Assembly (NCBI RefSeq): GCF_004912275.1
Contig: NZ_STGY01000073.1
Span: 1-64,000 of the forward strand
Direction: 5' to 3'
From: Glycomyces buryatensis
Lineage (GTDB): Bacteria; Actinomycetota; Actinomycetes; Mycobacteriales; Micromonosporaceae
DNA: 64,000 bases
Below are positions 44,092 to 49,394 of the stretch, piece after piece (position 1 is the first letter of the stretch; each line of letters starts with the position of its first letter). Below the pieces are notes generated by a model. That model did no database searches. It saw only the letters and a program-made list of their open reading frames with translations, and had not been told where the DNA came from. The position numbers were made by a program, and so were the translations under genes.

Positions 44092-45330
44092 ATGCGACGG
44101 TGGAAGAGTGCGGCCTCCCTGGCCGCCGCGGCCGCAGTCCTGGCCGCGGCGAGCGCCTGCACCCCCGACGAGTCCGATCAGGCGGGCGAGGAGGACGAAA
44201 AGGTCGCCCTGGTCGATCTGCTCAACGAGAACGAGCGCCTGCGCGCCGATGTGGCCGACGCCGAGTACGCGGTGATCAAGGACTGCCTCGAGGAGCAGGG
44301 CCACTCGGTGCACGACGCCCACCTGTTCCCCGCGTGGACCGAGGAGGACGGCGGTCTCCAGGACTCCTGGCACGACTTCGACAATTGGCTGCCGAAGCCG
44401 GAAGTCGCCTCCGAGTGGGGATTCGGCGTGGGCACCGTCGTCTCCAATGAGGATTACGAGGAATACGAGGAGGTCGCCTACGGCGTGGGCGGCGAGGAAG
44501 AGGAGATCGCCGAGTCGACCGAGGAGATCGACAACTCCGCGTTCGAAGCGCTCCCGGCCGAGGAGCGCGCCGCCTGGTACATCGCCTACGAGGGCGAGGA
44601 ACTGTCCGAGTTCACGGTGTGGACCCTGGAGCACCCGGATGCCACCGAGGACGAGATTCGGGCCTACGACTGGACCGGGCTCGACGAGGACAACAACCCC
44701 CTCAAGCCGGGCGGCTGCCGGCTCACCATGATCGAGGCCCTCTACGGCGAGCCCGAGTTGGTTCCGATGGGGGGATTCGAGGACGACCCCGAGATGGCCG
44801 CCGAGATGGAGGCCTCCGGCGAGCCCATGAACGAATGGTCCTGGGGCGTGGACGAACCGGCCGTGGAGGTCGACTCCAATGCCGCCTACATCGAAGGGAC
44901 CGTTGAAGAGTCGCAGGCGTTCATCTCTTGCCTGTCCGACGGCGGCTGGGGCGACTGGGAGTTCGACGAGTGGGGCTCGCTCCCGGTGAACCACTACCTG
45001 TCCATGGTCTACCAGGGTGAGGACTACCTCGAAGAGGAGGCCGCCATGTACGACCCGGCCGAGCTGGAGGACATGGGCGGCCTCGAGACGCCGGAGGGCG
45101 CCCCCGACCTCCCGGTGGACCTCCCCACCGACGACGCCGGCAAGGTCGCCCACGAGATCGCCCTCGCCGAGGCCTTCGTCGCCTGCTCCGACGAGACCGG
45201 CTTCCGCGATGCCGCCGTCGAGGCCTGGGACAACGCCGAGCTCTACGCCTACCGCGACGCCGAGACCGAACTCTTTGCGTACCAGGAGGAACTGCGCGCC
45301 GTCATCGCGGACGCGCAGAAGCTGCTCTAG
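44092..45330 (+). CDS. Acidic four-cysteine lipoprotein-like protein, paralogue A1
   Basis: A 412-residue exported protein, first of four tandem paralogues. The N-terminus is a basic, Ala-rich signal peptide ending ASAC (Cys23), compatible with lipid attachment. The mature chain is very rich in Glu/Asp/Trp/Tyr. Four later cysteines are conserved in all copies: KDCLEEQGHSVHD, KPGGCRLTMIEALYGEPE, FISCLSDGG and FVACSDETGF. A-type marks are EERAAWY and EWGSLPV. I do not recognise the family. ATG 44092 follows AAAGAGGG; a frame open from 43999 lacks a signal peptide at its start. Confidence 0.85.
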   Translation: MRRWKSAASLAAAAAVLAAASACTPDESDQAGEEDEKVALVDLLNENERLRADVADAEYAVIKDCLEEQGHSVHDAHLFPAWTEEDGGLQDSWHDFDNWLPKPEVASEWGFGVGTVVSNEDYEEYEEVAYGVGGEEEEIAESTEEIDNSAFEALPAEERAAWYIAYEGEELSEFTVWTLEHPDATEDEIRAYDWTGLDEDNNPLKPGGCRLTMIEALYGEPELVPMGGFEDDPEMAAEMEASGEPMNEWSWGVDEPAVEVDSNAAYIEGTVEESQAFISCLSDGGWGDWEFDEWGSLPVNHYLSMVYQGEDYLEEEAAMYDPAELEDMGGLETPEGAPDLPVDLPTDDAGKVAHEIALAEAFVACSDETGFRDAAVEAWDNAELYAYRDAETELFAYQEELRAVIADAQKLL

Positions 45331-45336
45331 CGGGAC

Positions 45337-45365
45337 CGCCGCGCCGCCGGACCGGCGGCGCGGCG
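45337..45365 (+). terminator. Hairpin between paralogues A1 and B1
   Basis: Perfect 12-bp arms CGCCGCGCCGCC and GGCGGCGCGGCG with a 5-base loop, 7 bases after the stop; no U tract. Confidence 0.65.
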
Positions 45366-45453
45366 AAATTCAAGACTTTCTCATCCGCTTGCAACTCTTC
45401 TGCTTCCGCACTGCGTCTTCGGGATAGACACACTCACTTACCCAAGGAGACCG

Positions 45454-46743: not shown

Positions 46744-46845
46744 TTCTCCATATCCAAGGGAGAAAAACCGGGATCCGGGGCAACGACGCTCGCGTCGGCG
46801 CACGTAATCAAGTTCAGACGGGGGACCGCAGAAGAGAGGACCGAA

Positions 46846-48063
46846 ATGCGACAGTGGACCAGAATGGGCGCGATCGCGGGGGGTGCCGCCATGCTCGCGG
46901 CGACCGGTGCGTGCACCATGTTCGGCGAGGATTCGGGCGGGGAGGACCCGGCCGAGACGGTCGACGCGGAGACCGCGGCCGACCTGACGCAACTGGTCAA
47001 CGAGACCCAGCTGACCGAATGGGAGCTCCACAACGCCGAGCGGCGGATCCTCAAGGACTGCATGGAGGACAAGGGCCACACGGTCCACGACGAGATCGGA
47101 CTCGTCGAGATCGATACCGACGACCTCGAAGCCTCGGTCGTCTCCTACCCATTCGCCGAATGGCTCCCCGAGCCCGAGGACGCCGAGCAATGGGGCTTCG
47201 GGGAATGGGCCGGGGCGCCCGAGGCCCAGGGAACCGCCGAGGCCGAGGAGTACCACAACTTGCGCTTCGGGGAAGAGGTCGAGGACGAGTCCGGGCCGAA
47301 GATCGCCGACAACTCCGAGTTCGAGGCGCTATCCAATGAGGACCGACGCGCCTGGTACTTCGACTACGCCGGAGAGGAGTACGCCGAGGCGACCTATTCC
47401 GGGAACTACCTCACCGATGACGAACTCCAGGAGCTATGGGCCTCCAGCGAATCCGAGGCGGGCGGCACCCTCGACCTCGGCAACCCCCAGCCCGGCGGAT
47501 GCCTGCTGGAGATGATCGAGGCCCTCTACGGCGAGCCCGAATTCATCACCGAGGAATCCGAGGAGGGCGACCGGGAGTACTGGGTCTGGCGGCCCCAGGC
47601 GCCGATCGACACCTACGAGATCGACTGGGGTGAACTCGAACCCGAATGGTCAGGATCGATCCAGGAATCCCAGGACGCGCTGCTCGACTGCCTCGCCGAC
47701 GCCGACGCCGACGCCGACGCCGGCATGGGCGAGTGGCAGTTCAGCGAATGGGGGTCCCTCCCGGTGCGCGACTACTGGAGCGTCGCCTACTACGGCGAGA
47801 ATTCAGACGAAAGCCCCTCCAGCGACGTCCCCGAACTCCCCGCCGACTTCCCGACCGACTACGACGGCAAGAAGGCCGCCGAGATCGCCATGGCCGTCGA
47901 ATTCGCCGAGTGCGGCGACACCTCCGGCTTTCGCGAGGACGCCACCGTCGAATGGGACCGGATCCACTACGGCGTCTACGCGGAAGTCGAGACCGAGCTC
48001 TACGCCTGGCAAGAGGAGACCGACGCGGCACTGGGGCGGGCACAGGACCTCATCGCCGGCTGA
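46846..48063 (+). CDS. Acidic four-cysteine lipoprotein-like protein, paralogue A2
   Basis: A 405-residue paralogue with a signal peptide ending LAATGAC (Cys23). Its motifs align with A1: RRILKDCMEDKGHTVHD, DNSEFEALSNEDRRAWY, QPGGCLLEMIEALYGEPE, LLDCLADADADADAG, EWQFSEWGSLPV and FAECGDTSGFRED. The EWGSLPV and (E/D)R-AWY marks group it with A1, not with its immediate neighbours. A short (Ala-Asp) repeat, DADADADA, lies near the third conserved Cys. ATG 46846 follows AGAGAGGAC; the open frame to 46726 adds no signal. Confidence 0.85.
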   Translation: MRQWTRMGAIAGGAAMLAATGACTMFGEDSGGEDPAETVDAETAADLTQLVNETQLTEWELHNAERRILKDCMEDKGHTVHDEIGLVEIDTDDLEASVVSYPFAEWLPEPEDAEQWGFGEWAGAPEAQGTAEAEEYHNLRFGEEVEDESGPKIADNSEFEALSNEDRRAWYFDYAGEEYAEATYSGNYLTDDELQELWASSESEAGGTLDLGNPQPGGCLLEMIEALYGEPEFITEESEEGDREYWVWRPQAPIDTYEIDWGELEPEWSGSIQESQDALLDCLADADADADAGMGEWQFSEWGSLPVRDYWSVAYYGENSDESPSSDVPELPADFPTDYDGKKAAEIAMAVEFAECGDTSGFREDATVEWDRIHYGVYAEVETELYAWQEETDAALGRAQDLIAG

Positions 48064-48167
48064 ATCGCATTTCGGATGAATAACGGCCCCAGTCGACCTG
48101 CAACGATTCGGCCCCTTCGCGGCGCCTTTCGGACGGTAGGAGTAATTCATTCGAAAGGACCCCTGAC

Positions 48168-49394
48168 ATGACACATTGGAATAAATCAGTGGGCGCGTTC
48201 GTGGCCGCCGCCCTGGCGGCGACCGGCGCGTGCTCGGTCTTCGGCGGCGACGAAGCGGGTGAGGGCGGGGACGGTGACGCCGCGACCCGCCTGGTCAACG
48301 CTCTCAATGAGAGCACCGCCCTCCAACAAGAGCTGTCCGCCGCCGAGCTCCGCATCGTCCAGACCTGTCTCGAAGACCAGGGACAGACCGTCCACGACCA
48401 GTACGAGCTGGCGCCGTGGGACGAGACCGAGCAGGAGTCGCTCGTCGAGTACTACCCGCACGAGGAGTTCCTGCCGTCGGCCGAGGAGGCCGAGAAGTGG
48501 GGCTTCAGCGCTTGGACGAACACCGGCGAGGGCTCGGAGGACCCCGAGCTCGATGCGGCCATCGCCGATGTGAACCCCGAGGGCGAGGACGAGATGCAGG
48601 ACGTCGACAACTCCGAGTTCGAGACCCTCTCCCCGCAGGAGCAATTCGACTGGTACGCCGCCTTCTACGGCGAGGAATACGCCACCGAGTACTACGGCTG
48701 GGCACTCGAGGAGGAGGGGTCCATCGAGGAAGCCGAGACCGCCGAGACCGCCGAGGGCGACGCCGCATCGGGCGAGATCGACGTCGAAGGCGGGGACGGG
48801 TACTCCGAGCCCAAGCCCGGCGGGTGCAAGCTGGAGATGATCCATGCCCTCTACGGCGAGCCCGAGGAGGTCACCGAGGACCTCGGCGACGGCGATAGCT
48901 TCTCCCACTGGAGCTACGGCCTCGAAATGCCCACGGGCACCGAAGAATCCTGGCAGGAAATGGAGGACGGGTACCGGGCCGCGGTCGCCGAGGTAGAGGA
49001 TGCCTTTTTGACCTGCCTGTCCGAGGGGCAGCTGGGCGAGTGGGAGTTCGACGAGAGCGGCTACCTGCCGATCTGGGAGTACTTCATCGTGGTCTACAAC
49101 GGTGGCGAGGGGGGCGACCTCTCCGAATTCCCCGTCGGCGAGATGCCGGACTATGACATCCCCGAGATTCCCGCCGACCTGCCCTCCGACTACGAGGGCA
49201 GGAAGGCCTACGAGATCGAGATGGCGACCGGCTTCGTCGCCTGCGGTGAGGAGACCGGCTACAGCGAGACGGCAGGGAACGCCTGGGACCAGGTCCAGCT
49301 CGACTTCTACCTCTCCATCGAGCAGGAGCTGTATGCCTACCAGGAGTCGGTGCGCGAGGCCATCGACAAGGCCCAGGGCCTGATCGAAGGCTAA
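48168..49394 (+). CDS. Acidic four-cysteine lipoprotein-like protein, paralogue B2
   Basis: A 408-residue last member of the array. The signal peptide ends LAATGAC (Cys22). Motifs match B1: ELSAAELRIVQTCLEDQGQTVHD, SPQEQFDWYAAFYGEEYA, EPKPGGCKLEMIHALYGEPE, FLTCLSEGQ, YLPIWEYF and FVACGEETGYSET. The last ~35 residues (DQVQLDFYLSIEQELYAYQE and on) form a predicted helix shared by all four copies. AAAGGACCCCTGAC precedes the ATG. A strong hairpin follows the gene. Confidence 0.85.
   Translation: MTHWNKSVGAFVAAALAATGACSVFGGDEAGEGGDGDAATRLVNALNESTALQQELSAAELRIVQTCLEDQGQTVHDQYELAPWDETEQESLVEYYPHEEFLPSAEEAEKWGFSAWTNTGEGSEDPELDAAIADVNPEGEDEMQDVDNSEFETLSPQEQFDWYAAFYGEEYATEYYGWALEEEGSIEEAETAETAEGDAASGEIDVEGGDGYSEPKPGGCKLEMIHALYGEPEEVTEDLGDGDSFSHWSYGLEMPTGTEESWQEMEDGYRAAVAEVEDAFLTCLSEGQLGEWEFDESGYLPIWEYFIVVYNGGEGGDLSEFPVGEMPDYDIPEIPADLPSDYEGRKAYEIEMATGFVACGEETGYSETAGNAWDQVQLDFYLSIEQELYAYQESVREAIDKAQGLIEG

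Follow-up and report, generated by a model that had tools for sequence, protein, structure and literature searches.

The window analysed here, a 64,000-nucleotide stretch of the Glycomyces buryatensis genome (contig NZ_STGY01000073.1, positions 1 to 64,000), carries between rplL and rpoB an array of four genes for strongly acidic proteins. These proteins belong to a family of actinobacterial lipoproteins with four cysteines that is widespread and has no name in the libraries searched. At some loci outside the genus, a family gene directly precedes the genes of a MacB-type transport system; this association is real yet not general, and the Glycomyces array itself is an orphan. The explanation that we favour as a whole, and to which we give an even chance, is that the array represents a branch of the family, orphaned and acidified, other members of which serve in part as a fourth MacB component, and that it stands where an mce operon has been lost.

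The array consists of four intact open reading frames on the forward strand (44092-49394) that encode lipoprotein-like, very acidic proteins of 405-412 residues. The gene order in the window is rplK-rplA-rplJ-rplL, the four array frames and rpoB-rpoC, the ribosomal and polymerase genes being named from their sequences. The array and its borders are as follows.

43498-43875, forward strand: rplL (named from its sequence), bordering the array upstream
44092-45330, forward strand: copy 1, four-cysteine acidic lipoprotein, 412 residues, lipobox end ASAC
45454-46683, forward strand: copy 2, four-cysteine acidic lipoprotein, 409 residues, lipobox end TAAC; start at 45454 or 45457
46846-48063, forward strand: copy 3, four-cysteine acidic lipoprotein, 405 residues, lipobox end TGAC
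48168-49394, forward strand: copy 4, four-cysteine acidic lipoprotein, 408 residues, lipobox end TGAC; AlphaFold2 model mostly helical, pLDDT 86
50350-53781, forward strand: rpoB (named from its sequence), bordering the array downstream

The frames of copies 1 and 3 extend further upstream, and their starts were picked by the signal peptide. All four proteins have a signal peptide with the pattern of a lipobox cysteine, from which acylation is predicted. They share 36-47% pairwise identity, and the lipobox cysteine together with Cys 65, 209, 280 and 365 (copy 1 numbering) is invariant among them. A preliminary description of the window had listed shared motifs around these four cysteines; the cysteines stand, but the motif given as CGEE differs in copy 1 (CSDE) and in copy 3 (CGDT). 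Each mature chain contains 101-115 aspartate and glutamate residues against 10-16 lysines and arginines (26.1-29.8% versus 2.6-4.2%).

None of the four proteins matches a Pfam, NCBIfam, PADLOC or PDB family above cut-off. Pfam returned no family at E ≤ 1 for any of them, hence no MlaD/Mce, Yip1 or metal-binding match, the library having a Yip1 model. Family members from other genomes likewise have no entry above cut-off in the copies of Pfam and NCBIfam searched, and their source names are ‘hypothetical protein’ or ‘secreted protein’. With profiles broadened stepwise (A1, A3 and A4), homologues were found in at least 44 of the 250 family-level genomes searched, comprising 21 of the 22 same-genus genomes and 23 of the 228 others, and in at least 21 of 396 Actinomycetota genomes, the window genome included. 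Because the family-group, phylum and adaptor searches scored 7, 5 and 12 candidates per genome, respectively, these counts are lower bounds. The family had been called unknown; it does lack a name in all four libraries, but it is not local. A profile search across Actinomycetota, proposed in the preliminary description, recovered divergent homologues with the same four cysteines.

For a maximum-likelihood tree with midpoint root we used 84 copies, with loci taken from a hand-made list, after dropping those that span fewer than 300 model positions or have identical last 250 residues. The core cysteines (C67, C220, C283 and C359 in copy 4) are kept in all 84 copies and the lipobox cysteine in 80, which supports the earlier prediction of exported, lipid-anchored envelope proteins with four cysteines. 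Two of the four exceptions have a hydrophobic N-terminal stretch without a cysteine. All 40 rows of alignment A4 also keep the four cysteines; identity to its first row is 17-28%, apart from one row at 60%. Acidity does not look like the core property of the family, because it is lower in the 34 copies from other genera that lie at other places (median aspartate plus glutamate of the mature chain 16.5%). The corresponding medians are 28.9% for same-genus copies linked to rplL, 24.8% for other same-genus copies and 24.7% for rplL-linked copies of other genera, and two copies linked to MacB genes reach 24.0% (L126) and 20.4% (L079).

The structure prediction that had been suggested gave a mainly helical AlphaFold2 model of copy 4 (pLDDT 86, pTM 0.81), and the MacB-linked homologue at L079 (P0015) is mainly helical as well (pLDDT 78, pTM 0.73). 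Both models present their main elements in the same order. A long first helix ends near the first cysteine, another helix begins at the second, and helices terminate near the third and fourth. From the order of the cysteines along the helices, the protein probably forms two disulfides, most likely C67-C220 and C283-C359 in copy 4. Searches of the PDB by sequence and with Foldseek using the models found no match, Foldseek giving none at E < 1, which does not exclude a known fold.

Outside the genus, seven of 32 loci have, directly 3′ of the family gene and on the same strand, genes for a MacA/HlyD-like, peptidoglycan-binding adaptor, an ATPase of MacB type and a MacB/FtsX permease.

L076, L079, L081, L110, L115, L119 and L126 (seven genomes): MacB-linked family loci

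The gap between family gene and adaptor gene at these loci ranges from -4 to about 49 bp, with start codons guessed. At L126, Pfam matches PG_binding_1 (22.8 bits, just under the cut-off of 23), ABC_tran, FtsX and MacB_PCD. The search across the phylum found the adaptor and/or the MacB ATPase directly downstream at six of 26 loci outside the window genome, in four genomes.

L140; L145 and L156; L147; L150 and L157 (grouped by genome): MacB-linked loci of the phylum search

Two of these genomes are of the same class (G516 and G586) and two of other classes (G295 and G601). The phylum search had yielded 27 loci outside the window genome, from which L151 was dropped for want of a family frame; among the 26 kept, each with flanks of 1.5 kb, L152 and L160 represent the same gene, and there is overlap among some of the others. 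The family gene of L140 has an internal stop, and an adaptor match on the opposite strand at L153 was left uncounted. The three neighbourhood surveys (outside the genus, across the phylum and from the adaptor side) used tblastn or hidden Markov models on open frames, as gene callers miss genes in lower-GC genomes. Seen from the adaptor, a family gene lies upstream at 13 of the 30 best adaptor loci. Seven of the 13 are query rows, and among the non-query loci the figure is six of 23, five of the six matches being weak (58-75 bits).

Within the genus, the place of the array is shared, as came out when rplL and rpoB were traced in relatives for the synteny comparison that the preliminary description had also proposed. 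The four-row profile matches 20 of the 22 same-genus genomes, the window genome included, and a wider profile adds one more (G015), so that the family is kept in 21. Among the 20 same-genus genomes with rplL and rpoB on one contig, again with the window genome, one full-length copy lies between the two genes in 12, two in three and three in one; four are found in the window genome alone. With 17 of the 20 genomes carrying at least one full copy there, the array is real and not a quirk of one assembly. Partial family copies stand beside an intact one before rpoB in G001 (L069), G005 (L046) and G014 (L048). In other genera, G034 has one copy between rplL and rpoB and G033 has none. The window genome holds eight strong family copies in all, its paralogues being dispersed. 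A second common neighbourhood is seen in three Glycomyces records (L037, L039 and L040), where two divergent family copies surround genes for an epimerase, a DUF6891 protein and a metallo-beta-lactamase-fold and/or HAD protein.

The copies of the window do not cluster in the tree. Each pairs with copies of other species (support 85-100), which argues that the array is old and has been unevenly gained and lost. All rplL-linked copies, from three genera, fall in one half of the tree, and the copies of the seven MacB loci fall in the other. For the ten closest among 66 pairs of orthologues, a simple count puts the ratio of non-synonymous to synonymous substitutions (dN/dS) at 0.32-0.79, values that codon bias may inflate; on these values the proteins are kept but fast-changing.

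The interval between rplL and rpoB has a likely history. The rplJL and rpoBC operons had been described as usually adjacent, but this is not the rule among relatives; several keep an mce operon in the interval. Among 61 genomes examined, 15 bear MlaE; it lies 1.3-6.2 kb from rplL in nine of them and near rpoB, on a contig other than that of rplL, in G045, and the remaining five show no such nearness. MlaE is found in none of the 22 same-genus genomes. At L073 (G028) an ATPase, two permeases and six Mce genes lie between rplL and rpoB, and at L132 (G070) six Mce genes follow rplL; no family gene was seen in the post-rplL mce stretch of either genome. Two further genomes of one genus, G025 and G125, have about 45-52 bp between the first Mce gene and the start of the family genes, of which G025 has four (the first being interrupted) and G125 one; a further five Mce domains come 68-72 kb later.

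L061 and L075 (G025) and G125:C2:871371-956917: mce operon split by about 70 kb between its first and second Mce genes

In G025 these distant Mce genes correspond, in the same order, to mce2-mce6 of G028, and rpoB follows them after about 7 kb. In G109, of the same genus as G025 and G125, a family gene directly follows rplL, and the genome has no MlaD match. The simplest history that we infer from gene order is an insertion of the family between mceA and mceB, followed by loss of mce in the Glycomyces line. The tree agrees in so far as the rplL-linked copies of three genera share one half.

Strong hairpins lie in and around the array.

43956-43991, forward strand: 18-bp perfect inverted repeat 3′ of rplL, followed by TTCTTTC (folding z -7.3); possible terminator or attenuator
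45337-45365, forward strand: hairpin after copy 1 (z -4.1)
46710-46744, forward strand: hairpin after copy 2 (z -5.8)
about 49436-49473, forward strand: 17-bp hairpin after copy 4 (z -7.8)

The array had been depicted as fenced by two strong hairpins. Both outer hairpins fold well, but strong ones also follow copies 1 and 2, and these could divide the array into separate transcription units. There is no strong hairpin 3′ of copy 3 (folding z +1.4), and a consensus terminator scan of the forward strand listed none of the flanking or internal hairpins. The 955-bp gap that separates the array from rpoB holds a further perfect inverted repeat of 14 bp (window 49606-49642). Upstream of the ribosomal genes, the minus strand (window 36816-39382) encodes an ABC-type ATPase (ABC_tran), which recurs at that place in other same-genus loci, and a 549-residue protein that has no Pfam match.

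In the mechanism that we prefer, the array proteins would be exported and lipid-anchored at the outer face of the membrane, as signal peptide and lipobox suggest, with a predicted, mainly helical body probably braced by two disulfides. As their neighbouring genes suggest, members of the MacB-linked branch would partner the MacB-type machine as its fourth, extracytoplasmic part, with a ligand or the adaptor as their binding target. The Glycomyces copies may act in trans on the separate adaptor system of their genome, or alone, and their acidic surface might bind positively charged ligands. The preliminary description had suggested cations, cationic peptides or surface polymers as possible binding partners. 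Behind rplL, family genes would have come between mceA and mceB of the lipid-import operon; the genus would later have lost mce and kept the lipoprotein genes, from which, to judge by gene order, the array then grew and shrank. To a lipoprotein partner that binds a ligand or an adaptor, acting in trans or alone in Glycomyces, we give at best an even prospect. The proposal of a dedicated extracytoplasmic subunit with four cysteines in part of the MacB machines, together with a Glycomyces branch that was freed, acidified and multiplied in the gap left by mce, falls somewhat short of that.

Several observations weigh against this explanation. The MacB set is missing at 25 of the 32 loci outside the genus, and an adaptor match occurs in at least 104 of 150 family-level genomes, far more often than the family, so that neither family nor adaptor needs the other. 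No MacB-type gene lies beside any same-genus copy in the loci surveyed. The array genes are not upstream of an adaptor-ATPase-permease set, either at their own locus or beside the one adaptor match of the window genome (G000:C21:154794-156059), which has a different gene upstream, and a family gene is missing upstream in 14 of the 15 adaptor loci read in the genus. The tree is deeply split between array-like and MacB-linked branches, between which the function may have changed. Three same-genus genomes (G003, G012 and G015) have no family copy in the slot between rplL and rpoB. Finally, the split operons from which the mce history is drawn come from a single genus, in two of its genomes, and the insertion could be secondary there. 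As an observation apart, G015 provides the exception among the same-genus adaptor loci (L184, G015:C5:235210-237443), with a divergent family gene directly upstream of the adaptor in a genome whose slot copy is absent.

The array proteins could instead be stand-alone polyanions of the cell surface that work without a transporter partner, binding divalent cations or sequestering cationic peptides close to the membrane. Their strongly acidic mature chains (26.1-29.8% aspartate and glutamate), the lack of MacB-type neighbours in the same-genus loci surveyed and the scatter of paralogues, with eight strong copies in the window genome, would all fit, as would separate transcripts if the hairpins between some array genes produce them. 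Acidity looks added, however, since the core cysteines are common to less acidic homologues (median 16.5%, although L126 has 24.0%); AlphaFold2 predicts a confident folded body over most of copy 4, and no metal-binding family was matched. We consider this reading unlikely, though it is the strongest of the rivals. A much less probable one is that the site among ribosomal genes gives only high expression to a fast-turnover array of paralogues that undergo birth and death, surface decoys for instance. The range from zero to four full copies at the locus, the partial copies in G001, G005 and G014, the window copies that are not mutual nearest relatives and the dN/dS values (crude, from 10 of 66 pairs) all speak for turnover. 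Yet at least one full copy persists in 17 of 20 genomes, the four cysteines are kept in 84 of 84 copies, and dN/dS is below 1 in the ten pairs.

Marginally less probable again is that these are accessory lipoproteins of an Mce lipid importer, the family having joined the mce operon to bind lipids and Glycomyces having kept them after the importer was lost. The family genes about 45-52 bp behind the first Mce gene in G025 and G125, whose copies share the tree half of the array, would be expected if so. The operon is broken exactly there, however, with 68-72 kb to the next Mce gene, and an insertion fits this better than a functional merger; G109 has its family gene after rplL yet no MlaD match in the genome, and the genus retains the family in 21 of 22 genomes with MlaE in none.

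The MacB-linked loci resemble YknWXYZ of Bacillus and other Gram-positive MacAB-like pumps, which combine an adaptor, an ATPase and a MacB-type permease with an extra envelope component. In Gram-positive MacB-type systems this component can be YknW, a protein of another family (PMC5985334, PMC4887032). YknW is described there as a Yip1-family membrane protein (PMC4887032), whereas the extra component here is a lipoprotein-like protein with four cysteines and no Pfam match above cut-off, and the Glycomyces array, unlike these pumps, has no pump genes alongside. Pfam gave no Yip1 match at E ≤ 1 for the array proteins, which speaks against their membership in the YknW/Yip1 family.

The Mce/Mla operon after rplL occupies the same chromosomal slot in relatives, and family genes abut its first Mce gene in two genomes, but the array proteins lack an MlaD/Mce domain and the genus lacks MlaE (0 of 22). 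The same Pfam search likewise speaks against their being Mce proteins. The SCO4651 family (NF053532) also places a lipoprotein at the ribosomal-protein cluster, inside rplKAJL of other Actinomycetes; rplA and rplJ were both matched at five of 12 of its loci (L192, L194, L197, L201 and L203). NF053532 scores 12.7-15.5 bits, at the N terminus only, with three of the four array proteins and does not match copy 2; by score, against a curated cut-off of 65 bits, the array is not related to this family, whose inspected members do not show the four-cysteine motifs of the array. SCO4651 is tabulated among the sigma-E targets of S. coelicolor in PMC6767563. Comparison with ABC solute-binding lipoproteins gave no Pfam or PDB-sequence match, and no Foldseek match at E < 1, a result compatible with such a fold all the same.

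The family thus offers a testable candidate for an extra subunit of some actinobacterial MacB-type systems, a setting in which, as stated in PMC5985334, the role of adaptors without an outer membrane is an open question. The slot history also suggests how a split and lost operon can leave its mark on a highly conserved gene cluster.

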